Below, piece by piece: positions 2,371 through 39,563 of a DNA stretch of 64,000 nt (the first letter of the stretch is position 1; every line of letters begins with the position of its first letter). Source of the stretch: an uncultured bacterium (GTDB taxonomy: Bacteria > Cyanobacteriota > Vampirovibrionia > Gastranaerophilales > Gastranaerophilaceae); the NCBI GenBank assembly GCA_902777855.1, contig CACYVN010000009.1, positions 1-64,000 of the forward strand, in the 5' to 3' direction. Made by a program: the position numbers and the translations under genes. Below the pieces are notes generated by a model. That model had not been told where the DNA came from, ran no database searches, and worked only from the letters and a program-made list of their open reading frames with translations.

Positions 2371-2422
2371 ATACCCTCCCCCTTGAGGGAGGGTCGAAAT
2401 CTGTGATTTCGGGGAGGGGTAT
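2371..2422. repeat. family-1 palindromic repeat (CCCTCCCC...GGGGAGGGG) carrying a ribosome binding site
   Basis: This 52-bp element begins ATACCCTCCCC and ends GGGGAGGGGTAT, with an inner hairpin CCTCCC...GGGAGG and the core TCGAAATCTGTGATTTCG. It fills the whole space between the ftsY stop and the next gene. Its last bases, GGGGAGGGG, lie just 5' of the TTG start codon and act as an apparent Shine-Dalgarno sequence. A nearly identical copy lies inside the next gene at 2575-2626. Other copies are at 2960-3009, 16498-16549 and 38764-38812. Confidence 0.85.
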
Positions 2423-3514
2423 TTGAATATTTTACAATCTGCAACCACAAAACTTGGAAATAGAATTGAACTTATCGGTATGCCGTCAGAGAATAATGTT
2501 TTGATAATCGGTGTTTTTCACGGTGACGAACCTCAAGGGAAATATTTAATTGAGAACTACTTGAACGAAAATGAATACCCTCCCCTTGAGGGAGGGTCGA
2601 AATCTGTGATTTCGGGGTGGGGGCATAAATATAGTGTGTTCGCAAAGGAGAAAGCAAAAGAATTAAGAAATAATGCAACATTACATGAACAAATATTGTG
2701 GAATTATTTAAGAAAAAGTCAATTTATGGGTTTGAAATTCAGAAGACAACAACCTATAAATACATATATTGTAGATTTTGTTTGCTTTTACCCAAAAATA
2801 ATAATTGAACTTGACGGTAGTCAACACATTAATAACAAAGATTATGATAAAAATAGAGATGAATTTTTTAAAAATTTAGGCTTTAAAGTTATACGAATAT
2901 ATAATAATGACATTTCGAATAATATAGAAGGTGTTTTAGAACATATAAAAAATGAAATTACCCCCACCCGGAAATTAAAAATTCCCACCCTCCCTCAAGG
3001 GGAGGGTACTAATGATAGTCTTTTGTTCATCCCATGCCTGAATCCTGACGGGCTTCAAAACGGTACACGCACAAACGCAAACGGTGTTGATTTGAACCGT
3101 AATTTCCCGACAAATAATTGGGGTGATGATACAAGCGGAGCAGGGGAAAATCCGAAAGATTATTACTCAGGCGAAAGTGCAGGAAGCGAAATTGAAACGC
3201 AATTTGTCATTGACATTATTGAAAAATATCAGCCCAAAATGATTTTGACTTTACATGCGCCTTACAAAATCGTCAATTTTGACGGACCTGCACAGGATAT
3301 CGCAAAAAAAATCTCTGATATAATAGGTTACCCCGTTGAAGAAAGTATCGGCTACCCGACTCCGGGGAGTTTCGGGACTTATTGCGGAATTGAACGAAAC
3401 ATCCCGACAATTACATTAGAATTAGACGAAAAAATACCGGTCGAAAACTTAGTCCAGCCGGTATCTGAAATTTTTAATCTTTGTATGGATCAAAGAAACT
3501 TTGCCCAAAGGTAA
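2423..3514 (+). CDS. M14-family zinc carboxypeptidase (MpaA-like) interrupted by an in-frame DUF559 nuclease element
   Basis: The host protein resembles MpaA, a zinc amidase that removes diaminopimelate-containing residues from murein peptides. Zinc ligands are H33 and E36 in FHGDEPQG and H278 in LHAPY. The substrate-binding stretch reads VDLNRNFP and the catalytic glutamate is E333 in TLELDE. Without the insert the protein would be about 218 residues, normal for this family. Residues 52-196 are foreign: a palindromic repeat, a DUF559/Vsr-like domain (D118, E129, D131, H135 in YIVDF and ELDGSQH) and an inverted repeat copy, all in frame. The insert lies in a loop between the HGDE helix and the next core strand (SLLFIPCLNPDG). 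The start is TTG, with its ribosome binding site inside the upstream repeat. The 3' end overlaps the convergent gene by about 40 bp. Confidence 0.88.
   Translation: MNILQSATTKLGNRIELIGMPSENNVLIIGVFHGDEPQGKYLIENYLNENEYPPLEGGSKSVISGWGHKYSVFAKEKAKELRNNATLHEQILWNYLRKSQFMGLKFRRQQPINTYIVDFVCFYPKIIIELDGSQHINNKDYDKNRDEFFKNLGFKVIRIYNNDISNNIEGVLEHIKNEITPTRKLKIPTLPQGEGTNDSLLFIPCLNPDGLQNGTRTNANGVDLNRNFPTNNWGDDTSGAGENPKDYYSGESAGSEIETQFVIDIIEKYQPKMILTLHAPYKIVNFDGPAQDIAKKISDIIGYPVEESIGYPTPGSFGTYCGIERNIPTITLELDEKIPVENLVQPVSEIFNLCMDQRNFAQR
2575..3009. mobile_element. composite element: DUF559 endonuclease domain between inverted family-1 repeats
   Basis: A family-1 repeat (2575-2626) and an inverted copy (2960-3009) enclose about 330 bp coding for a DUF559 domain of the PD-(D/E)xK, Vsr-like fold. 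The domain has its usual signatures: an N-terminal helix LRNNATLHEQILWNYLR, the strand LKFRRQQPI, YIVDF, and ELDGSQH. The 435-bp span is a multiple of three and both host flanks are in frame. No stop codon interrupts the domain and the catalytic residues are intact, so the nuclease fold may be functional. There are no intein splice-junction residues or intron features. The mobility itself is inferred from structure and repeat copy number. Confidence 0.7.
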
Positions 3515-16497: not shown

Positions 16498-16549
16498 TAT
16501 CCCCACCCGAAAATCAAAGATTTTCACCCTCCCTCAAGGGGAGGGTATA
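16498..16549. repeat. family-1 palindromic repeat, inverted orientation
   Basis: It runs TATCCCCACCCG...CAAAGATTTTCACCC and ends TCCCTCAAGGGGAGGGTATA. It matches the reverse complement of the copy at 2371-2422 and has the same orientation as the right end of the DUF559 element (2960-3009). Confidence 0.8.
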
Positions 16550-16641: not shown

Positions 16642-17337
16642 ATGAAAATGGCAAATGTATTAGTTTATGAGTTAGACGGAAAAATATATATAAATCTGAC
16701 AAACAAATGCACAAATGACTGTATATTTTGTCTTCGCAAAGACAAAGATGATGTCAAAGGTCAGACACTATGGCTTGATGATGAAAATTGTACGGCTCAG
16801 GATGTAATAGCACAACTAAATAAATATTACCCTCACCCCAACCCTCTCCCAAAGGGCGAGGGAGCAGTTGCAAACGAGTTTACGAGTTGTGCAAATGCGG
16901 GTGAGGGTTTAAACGAAGTCATTTTCTGCGGTTACGGTGAACCGTTATTAAAACTTGATGTTTTAAAAGAAGTTGCAGCATATATCAAAGCAAATTATCC
17001 TGACACAAAAATCAGAATTAACACAAACGGACACGCAAACTATGTTTATAAAAGGGATATTGTGCCGGAATTAAAAGGCCTGATAGATACAATTTCCGTC
17101 AGTCTGAACGGTGAATCTTCAAAAGAATATGACGAATTATCCCAGCCTGTTTTTGAGGGTGCTTATGATGAGGTTAAAAAATTTATAAAATCTTGTGCAG
17201 ATAATGGTATAGAAACAATTGCAAGTGTTGTTGAAGGTTACAGGGGCAGACATTTAAATCTTGAAAAATGTGAGCAAATTGCTTATAATCTCGGTGCAAA
17301 GTTCAGGGTGCGTGAATGGATTAAAAATGGTTATTAA
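16642..17337 (+). CDS. TatD-associated-type radical SAM protein with in-frame repeat insertion
   Basis: This 231-residue protein is a short radical SAM enzyme of the type often found with TatD nucleases. The [4Fe-4S]/SAM motif is C23-x3-C27-x2-C30 in NKCTNDCIFC. Later come EVIFCGYGEPLL (the glycine-rich SAM contact), IRINTNGHAN and ISVSLNG. Its substrate is unknown. About 27 residues (63-89, PHPNPLPKGEG and following) have no counterpart in the family and are encoded by a palindromic repeat inserted before the EVIFCGYGEP strand. AAGGG lies 9 nt before a second ATG at 16648, which may be the true start. No tatD gene is adjacent. Confidence 0.82.
   Translation: MKMANVLVYELDGKIYINLTNKCTNDCIFCLRKDKDDVKGQTLWLDDENCTAQDVIAQLNKYYPHPNPLPKGEGAVANEFTSCANAGEGLNEVIFCGYGEPLLKLDVLKEVAAYIKANYPDTKIRINTNGHANYVYKRDIVPELKGLIDTISVSLNGESSKEYDELSQPVFEGAYDEVKKFIKSCADNGIETIASVVEGYRGRHLNLEKCEQIAYNLGAKFRVREWIKNGY
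16829..16908. repeat. family-2 palindromic element inserted in frame in the radical SAM gene
   Basis: Perfect 10-bp terminal inverted repeats ACCCTCACCC (16829-16838) and GGGTGAGGGT (16899-16908) enclose an inner hairpin CCCTCTCCC...GGGCGAGGG. The right part contains AACGAGTTTACGAGTTGTGCAAA. An intergenic copy with the same right part is at 33606-33690. A 33-bp short form lies in pgeF at 23080-23112. Confidence 0.8.
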
Positions 17338-38173: not shown

Positions 38174-38202
38174 ATATTAGTACGAAAACATTTTATTTGC
38201 AA
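38174..38202 (-). promoter_or_regulatory. promoter of rpmI-rplT
   Basis: On the minus strand TTGCAA (38197-38202), 17 nt, TAATAT (38174-38179). It overlaps the last codons of the upstream membrane-protein gene and gives a leader of about 95 nt. Confidence 0.65.
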
Positions 38203-39563
38203 GCGGTTTGTGTATATTTGTTAATAAATTCTTCTATTGTTACTTTCCCTTTGAAAGTTGTTGGTGTGTTTTTTAATTCTTCCTGTTTTTCTTTTTCAAT
38301 ATTGTGACGCAGAAATTTATTCAAGAATTTAGGTAAAGCAAAACCAATTAAGGCGGTGTTTGTGAGCAATGAAAACCAATACAGCCCTGCACCGACATTT
38401 TTTGTTTTTTTCAAAATTCCCGGTGCAATATCTTTTGTTTCGTCTAAAGTTCTGAAATTTCTTATTGGCATTTTAAATTTTTGGATGAAATTTAAATTTT
38501 TACCGCCGTCGTTCATAATCTTTGTGCCTAAAAACTTATCTAAAAGTCGACCTGCAATATTATTAATAAGAAAATCTCCGCCAAAAAACATTGTAAATAA
38601 TCCTATATCTCTCAATGCTCTGTCTTTACGTTCGTTTGAATCTCTTGATGAAATAAGTTTTGCGGGAAAACTTGATAATACCCAGATTGATGCATAGATA
38701 AGTTTTGACATATTTGTTCCTGAGGTGTAATCAAAATTATGCGGATTCTTTGCAATTTTTTTGTATCCCCACCTCGAAATCAAAGATTTCGGTCCTCCCT
38801 CAAGGGGAGGACTTTTTAAAGATAAGGATAATCCTTTTGTTACTGTTTTTGCAAAAAGTATTCCGGGAATAACCGAAAAAGCAATATTCCATGCAAGTTT
38901 TTTGAGTTTTGATTTCTTAACTTCCTCATCAGATTTTGAATTATCTTTTTTTAGTTCAAATCCCGCCGAAAAATCTTTTCGTTTGGTTCTTTTTTGGGTA
39001 AATTCTGTTGCTATCCAAGGAATGGCAGACCACATAGCACCTGTCGTGATAAAATCCGTCATCAAAACTTTTTCGTGAACGGATAATAAGTCTTTTTTTA
39101 ATTTTTCTTCATCATTGTATCTGTTATAAATTTCTTCAAATGCCTTTTGATGTTCATTAGAACCGGTTTTTTTGTCAAAAATCTTTGCGGTTTTTTCTAT
39201 ACCTTCTTTTAAATTCCCTTCAGGAGTCAGGTATTTTTTTGATACCTGAATAATTTTTTTCTCAACACCGTTAAGTGACTTAATTATTCCTTTATTTTTC
39301 AAAAAATGTTTGTTATAAAGTGGGAGGAGTAAAACGGGAGTGAGGTAGGAAGCGACAAAATATATTCCGCCCATCAATGCACGCTCTTGTGCTTCATATT
39401 TGTTATTCGACATAATACATTGCGGCGCCGTGCTCCCGCCGAGTGTTGTAATCCCTCTGTTAACCAGAGTATGATTTTGAACGTAAGAGGTTGCATTATA
39501 TATATTAAGCCCCTTAAAGGGTAATGTATCAGATACTTTTTTACAATTCATAATCATATTCAT
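38193..39563 (-). CDS. hypothetical membrane protein with in-frame repeat insertion
   Basis: This protein of up to 456 residues is unrecognised. It has several probable membrane segments (for instance YFVASYLTPVLLLPLY, LAWNIAFSVIPGILFA, GLYWFSLLTNTALIGFALP). Near the N-terminus is LPFKGLNIYN, which recalls the NFxG motif of the tandem paralogues at 17.3-18.6 kb. Residues about 251-267 (SPPLEGGPKSLISRWGY) are encoded by a family-1 palindromic repeat and are probably an insertion. Three ATGs (39563, 39557, 39551) are possible starts and none has a clear ribosome binding site. Confidence 0.65.
   Translation of the reverse strand: MNMIMNCKKVSDTLPFKGLNIYNATSYVQNHTLVNRGITTLGGSTAPQCIMSNNKYEAQERALMGGIYFVASYLTPVLLLPLYNKHFLKNKGIIKSLNGVEKKIIQVSKKYLTPEGNLKEGIEKTAKIFDKKTGSNEHQKAFEEIYNRYNDEEKLKKDLLSVHEKVLMTDFITTGAMWSAIPWIATEFTQKRTKRKDFSAGFELKKDNSKSDEEVKKSKLKKLAWNIAFSVIPGILFAKTVTKGLSLSLKSPPLEGGPKSLISRWGYKKIAKNPHNFDYTSGTNMSKLIYASIWVLSSFPAKLISSRDSNERKDRALRDIGLFTMFFGGDFLINNIAGRLLDKFLGTKIMNDGGKNLNFIQKFKMPIRNFRTLDETKDIAPGILKKTKNVGAGLYWFSLLTNTALIGFALPKFLNKFLRHNIEKEKQEELKNTPTTFKGKVTIEEFINKYTQTACK
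38764..38812. repeat. family-1 palindromic repeat in frame in a membrane-protein gene
   Basis: It runs TATCCCCACCTCGAAATCAA...GATTTCGG and ends CCTCCCTCAAGGGGAGGAC. It matches the copies at 2371, 2575, 2960 and 16498 and is translated as PPLEGG and following residues, like the copy in the peptidase gene. Confidence 0.8.

Follow-up and report, generated by a model that had tools for sequence, protein, structure and literature searches.

The window (the 64,000-nucleotide stretch of DNA analyzed here) contains, inside the gene for an MpaA-like zinc carboxypeptidase, what we interpret as a copy of a small and widespread mobile element. Triplex-forming inverted palindromic repeats would be its ends, and its only gene, encoding a DUF559 Vsr-like nuclease, would also supply the mobility enzyme. 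We give this reading a probability of roughly two in three. Most copies are intergenic, and a fraction lie in frame inside host proteins, apparently in loops.

A nuclease domain in frame within MpaA

The preliminary description had reported a DUF559 domain inserted in an MpaA-like ORF at about 2575–3009. The insert is real: in ORF 2423–3514, which has no stop anywhere along its length, Pfam places DUF559 at residues 75–179 (E = 4e-39; 133 bits against a curated cut-off of 20.6) and Peptidase_M14 at residues 200–285 (E = 7e-16). The insert sits between the HxxE motif and the NPDG strand. All host catalytic residues said to be intact were located around it, H33 and E36 of the HxxE motif on its N-terminal side and NPDG, the NR pair, H278 and E333 on its C-terminal side. 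The nuclease residues D118, E129, D131 and H135 are likewise present, and are invariant in 22 aligned relatives. We also confirmed that the host frame is read through the insert with no self-splicing partner. Pfam gave no match to an intein (Hint) domain in the ORF, on which ground an intein reading was rejected, and Rfam found no intron family in the mpaA/insert region, where the frame reads through.

Table 1. Coordinates of the host gene, the element and the repeats (window positions unless a locus is named)
Feature	Position	Strand	Basis or remark
Host ORF, MpaA-like M14 zinc carboxypeptidase with in-frame insert	2423–3514	+	363 aa, TTG start; Pfam M14 and DUF559
Complete element (DUF559 segment between the left and the inverted right triplex repeat)	2576–3008	+	Repeat ends; missing from empty MpaA orthologues
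DUF559 (PF04480), Vsr-like PD-(D/E)XK nuclease domain	2645–2959	+	Pfam; 3hrl by sequence and fold
Left terminal repeat (triplex/BoxC-type)	2578–2622	+	Triplex-motif finder; translated as PPLEGGSKSVISGWG
Right terminal repeat, inverted	2962–3006	-	Triplex-motif finder; translated as PTRKLKIPTLPQGEG
Third copy of terminal repeat, without nuclease, between ftsY stop and mpaA start	2374–2419	+	
Solo repeat of the terminal-repeat family, intergenic	16501–16545	-	
Solo triplex repeat of another family, in frame in radical-SAM ORF 16642–17337	16842–16907	+	Translated as YYPHPNPLPKGEGAVANEFTSCANAGEGLN
Solo triplex repeat, in frame in ORF 38193–39563 (-)	38767–38811	-	Translated as PPLEGGPKSLISRWG
whalefall-1 matches, window	2575–2624, 2371–2421, 2960–3009, 16499–16548, 38765–38814		
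whalefall-1 match, locus L217	2403–2463		
whalefall-1 match, locus L058	2795–2863		

The terminal repeats are triplex motifs

The left and right terminal repeats align with a score of 66, compared with a 99th percentile of 27 in shuffles. The preliminary description was right that the repeats are inverted, but plain palindromic hairpins do not describe them fully: they are motifs of the BoxC/PIT triplex type. Their layout is that of an intrastrand-triplex motif, in which a pyrimidine arm is followed by a purine arm, another small hairpin and a purine third strand mirroring the purine arm, and the pyrimidine arm, purine arm and mirror purine third strand that mark a BoxC-type motif were found in the window repeats and flanks. 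Structure prediction for the window repeats gave hairpins only, and the triplex assignment is that of a sequence motif. The repeat core CCTCCCCTTGAGGGAGG has eight copies in the genome and a reversed-pattern control has none. The terminal TA of the repeats seems to be part of the repeat itself. The solo repeat in the radical-SAM ORF is shared with one relative (G023) and is missing at that place in 28 others.

Triplex repeats are not unusually free of stops, an idea that we rejected because they have 3.98 open frames per repeat versus 3.82 in shuffles; their GC-rich composition is enough to explain why stops are scarce.

Full-length matches to the Rfam family whalefall-1 (RF01762) reached E-values down to 6e-6, all of them under the gathering score (for the left terminal repeat, 30.8 bits against 37). 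This family is listed as a certain RNA and was found solely in whale-fall metagenomes (PMC2864571). Whalefall-1 may be a DNA repeat of the triplex kind.

Most DUF559 genes are flanked by inverted triplex repeats

We applied a fixed triplex-motif finder to the flanks of DUF559 genes and to control places in the same loci. Within the genus, oppositely oriented motifs flank 57 of 73 copies and none of the 219 control places. Among 103 copies from other genera and phyla, motifs were found on both flanks of 73, in opposite orientation in 70, compared with 1 of 309 control places (both sides, any orientation). Opposite orientation holds for 127 of the 130 copies having both repeats. The rate for composition-preserving random sequences was 0–0.3%, and GIY-YIG nucleases, taken as a control from the same genus genomes, were never flanked (0/25). 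The two ends of a unit also resemble each other: the left-right score averages 50.6 within units and 21.9 across units, and 50 of 150 units find their best match in their own right end, about one being expected. Solo type-A repeats were found in five of the eight genomes with type-A elements and in two of the 38 without them (p = 0.0008). No published link between DUF559 and triplex repeats was found in the open-licence literature, and our claim of novelty is bounded by that literature.

In E. coli, the DUF559 gene ycjD is present in 3366 of 5426 genomes, and about 38% of complete genomes are without it. In K-12 (L271, 1578–2299) a BoxC repeat lies between ycjD and fabI, and repeats occur on the 3' side of ycjD only, which counts against the mobile-element reading. 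The sapF-fabI interval was considered as an empty ycjD site and rejected, as an efflux operon occupies it in both ycjD-negative strains that were examined and it is therefore not a clean empty site. A DUF559 gene resembling 3hrl in N. gonorrhoeae NZ_CP119142 (L269, 2854–3336) has triplex-like repeats on both sides, with an inverted-repeat score below the shuffle maximum.

Copies in other genes and genomes

A check for other repeat-flanked DUF559 copies, proposed in the preliminary description, found many, also in unrelated genes. Units of repeat, DUF559 and repeat do recur as it anticipated, but they are not confined to Gastranaerophilales: the cross-phylum loci include Pseudomonadota, Spirochaetes, Chloroflexi, Omnitrophota, Patescibacteria and Cyanobacteria. 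Inside the genus, 24 of 78 DUF559 units lie within a longer host frame. Hosts confirmed by Pfam are PrmA (L165), ValS in Rickettsiales (L168), PriA (L233), an HI0933-like flavoprotein (L073), a GHMP kinase reading as IspE (L173, L249), an HsdS-type specificity subunit (L167), a UvrD helicase (L198), a radical-SAM protein reading as HydE (L246, C-terminal) and a CCA-adding-type enzyme (L033, N-terminal). Further hosts, identified by sequence reading only, are PriA (L245, L247, L250, L252, L253) and adenine methyltransferases (L057, L254, L263, L264).

Several individual loci deserve mention. One 577-residue frame reading as IspE (L243; G076 contig C3, 93779–95140) has two separate DUF559 matches. 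The ValS unit lies in the order in which the protein-coding palindromes known as RPE were described. Some free DUF559 copies have internal stop codons (L041 and L023 of G023), so that decay of the element is under way. Tandem arrays of repeat-containing units of about 130 bp (L053, 3320–5191; L082, 3320–3674) differ in copy number and sit 3' of DUF559 copies from two species that encode identical proteins.

Occupied, remnant and empty alleles

Using a C-terminal host query, we located mpaA in 44 of the 46 genomes of the genus that were surveyed. The site is occupied in 13 genomes; about 6 contain a remnant repeat only, and about 25 have an empty site, so MpaA orthologues without the insert, which the preliminary description had suggested seeking, exist. 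Neither of the two outcomes that it had named as refuting was obtained. Occupied proteins are 357–403 residues long where complete, and empty ones about 209–235. Empty alleles have a short loop at the insert site (for instance KYISAKYHEGLLFIPC in L089), and remnant alleles have a repeat-derived peptide alone (LPPAKGRVRERG in L088, SPTSKSVISTWG in L087). On the host tree, the distribution of the occupied alleles implies a minimum of seven changes on branches with good support, and their grouping as one clade is rejected (AU p = 1e-33). The site therefore has the occupied and empty alleles, scattered on the host tree, that are typical of homing. Two pairs of sister elements, in G033/G044 and G009/G037, are not sisters as hosts (p = 6e-5 and 5e-4), and repeat families at the site vary from host to host.

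PrmA presents a similar picture, with four occupied alleles (L054, L064, L067, L070), many clean empty ones (for instance KNGEKCEFELGS in L116) and solo repeats in L115 and L130 where the occupied alleles hold the element. Junctions in PrmA are unclean, additional bases being present next to the repeats. The PrmA and MpaA junctions, where the loops are divergent, gave no sign of a target-site duplication.

Evidence for movement

Related elements are found at unrelated sites. The MpaA type-A and PrmA nucleases form one clade (98/91) and share a repeat family, and the same is true of the UvrD-like and HI0933 nucleases (100/99). Loci L018 and L029 have only 424 bp in common, in different surroundings, as do L078 and L079 of one genome (about 390 bp), and the stretch common to L039/L043 and to L040/L026 is just ~480–490 bp. 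In L037 and L050 the element is 97.5% identical, compared with 86.6% upstream and 84.1% downstream in the orthologous flanks. In L061 and L062, the insert has a dS of 0.034 versus 0.30 for the host gene, and its divergence is 1.4% versus 7–9% in the flanks, in a region that also has other stretches of low divergence. The insert is younger than its host in L001/L061 as well. These comparisons show the element to behave as a unit that moves.

The homing-like mobile element of the preliminary description is supported by recurrence, by occupied, empty and remnant alleles, by read-through and by the lack of a splicing domain; its interpretation as a whole stands only in part, the targeting of the repeats by the nuclease being the conjectural part. 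Phages or plasmids as the vehicle were considered and rejected: DUF559 was found in just 5 phage records and 44 PLSDB records, several of the latter chromosome-sized.

Conservation and fold of the nuclease

All 182 copies compared, whether in frame or free, retain the D, E, D and H residues; in the 80 cross-phylum loci among them, the search pattern itself selected in part for E129/D131/H135. Most pairs of DUF559 segments have a dN/dS of ~0.05–0.35, and one very close pair has an uninformative value of 1.1. These values show catalytic residues conserved under purifying selection. In the AlphaFold model, the DUF559 domain has a pLDDT of ~90 and both repeat-encoded linkers are below 50. Foldseek matched the MpaA structures 4axv and 5hxd and the DUF559 structure 3hrl; 3hrl was also matched by sequence, and a profile search matched 3r3p, annotated as a 'mobile intron protein' (E = 1.6e-4). 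An anti-phage defense reading was rejected, as PADLOC gave no match to a defense model. In Caulobacter, a methyltransferase mutant needs the DUF559 protein VsrA for SOS induction in vivo (PMC12907096), which fits an active nuclease.

Alternative explanations and proposed mechanism

The most serious alternative, although an unlikely one, is that another enzyme, slippage or recombination spreads the triplex repeats and that DUF559 genes, perhaps serving Vsr-type repair, merely accumulate between them. It would account for G007 and G032, which have a solo type-A repeat but no type-A nuclease, and it agrees with the report of no mobility gene near E. coli BoxC repeats (PMC4666352) and with the interpretation of VsrA as a mismatch-repair enzyme (PMC12907096). 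It does not explain why the association is specific to DUF559 and absent from GIY-YIG genes, why the repeats are almost always opposed and the two ends of a unit match, or why the stretch common to unrelated loci consists of repeat, gene and adjacent repeat. Less probable still is a single ancient insertion in mpaA that was inherited vertically and lost repeatedly, with no homing or transfer into the site. Remnant repeats show that loss occurs, and the DUF559s of the MpaA site group together on the gene tree (3 changes versus 12 for shuffles), where a single origin of all of them is compatible with the data (p = 0.32; the domain is short and the tree poorly resolved). Against this scenario, the insert is younger than the host in L061/L062 and L001/L061, element sisters are not host sisters, repeat families differ at the site, and the copies in PrmA, PriA, IspE, ValS and intergenic regions would be left unexplained.

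We consider it very improbable that DUF559 is an adaptive nuclease domain of its host enzymes. In its favor, the reading frame, the fold and the catalytic motifs of the host are preserved, but the hosts are unrelated housekeeping enzymes with close orthologues that do not have the domain, and intergenic copies bear the same ends. An assembly or binning artefact around the repeats is hardly credible: the genus genomes are mostly metagenome assemblies, but the same junctions occur in several of them, in-frame copies are present in near-complete two-contig cyanobacterial genomes (G101, G139), and flanked intergenic copies were seen in isolates, among them Pseudomonas, Cedecea, Sphingomonas and Variovorax.

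For the mobile element that we favor, the DUF559 nuclease would nick or cut either its cognate repeat, possibly in an extruded or triplex form, or an allele that lacks the element, and repair templated by an occupied copy would then install the element, as in homing. Solo repeats and gene-less inverted pairs would be remnants or non-autonomous derivatives. For in-frame copies, the nuclease would be an additional folded domain held by repeat-encoded Pro/Gly-rich linkers, and the host would retain its active site. Such insertions would persist because the loops are tolerant and the GC-rich repeats read as Pro/Gly-rich linkers; the linkers would tolerate insertion because about four of the six frames of such GC-rich repeats are without stops. 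Cleavage specificity, direction and production of the fusion protein are points that we infer.

A broader proposal, on which we are evenly balanced, is that DUF559 nucleases are the mobility enzymes of BoxC/PIT triplex repeats across bacteria. They would then define a new class of element that recognizes triplex-forming ends and enters coding sequence in frame, its ends doubling as linkers, with Rickettsia-type palindromes as non-autonomous relatives. Known since the 1990s, BoxC/PIT repeats are present in hundreds of genomes, and DUF559 would be the first candidate enzyme for their spread, their mobility being so far unexplained. DUF559 is itself a widespread domain of unknown function; E. coli K-12 has a homologue (ycjD), a structure has been solved (3hrl), and its link to the repeats makes BoxC/PIT repeats, Rickettsia palindromes and DUF559 testable in laboratory strains. 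The element also suggests a route by which a selfish gene could give a housekeeping enzyme an entire new domain, linkers included, and leave the enzyme unbroken.

Comparison with known systems

The closest match to the repeats is the BoxC/PIT/TM_ECO family (Holder et al. 2015), which has the same architecture and near-identical sequence, for instance CCCTCTCCCTTGAGGGAGAGGGTTAGGGTGAGGGT (PMC4666352). In E. coli, inverted pairs of these repeats were reported and triplex formation in solution was demonstrated; the repeats were described as intergenic, with no mobility gene beside them (PMC4666352). In contrast, repeats of the window type bound a unit that carries a nuclease gene, and they are also found within coding frames.

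There is also a likeness to REPIN/RAYT systems in the combination of inverted palindrome pairs, a single-gene enzyme and non-autonomous copies. REPINs are inverted palindromic repeat pairs with a dedicated single-gene enzyme and non-autonomous copies elsewhere; that enzyme, RAYT, is an HUH tyrosine transposase. An HUH tyrosine transposase is absent between the repeats here, where the DUF559 nuclease is the sole gene. The enzyme is thus of the PD-(D/E)XK type, the ends are triplex motifs, and in-frame protein insertions are common.

Rickettsia palindromic elements are in-frame palindromes whose host proteins still work, according to the account in PMC3733652 that cites Ogata 2002. The in-frame solo repeats at 16842–16907 and 38767–38811 resemble them. 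RPEs are without an enzyme, whereas the in-frame unit described here encodes a nuclease; no enzyme for the Rickettsia protein-coding palindromes was found in the open-licence literature.

Among homing systems, the Vsr-like (EDxHD) endonuclease I-Bth0305I (3r3p) has a related nuclease and scattered occupancy of one site. EDxHD homing endonucleases of this type are located in introns or split-intein contexts. The window element, by contrast, has no self-splicing intron or intein partner, and its insert would stay in the protein. Finally, YcjD of E. coli, VsrA and NGO0050 (3hrl) belong to the same Pfam family as the window nuclease, and Vsr to the same superfamily. The role proposed for Vsr and VsrA is repair, whereas the genomic evidence presented here points to mobility.
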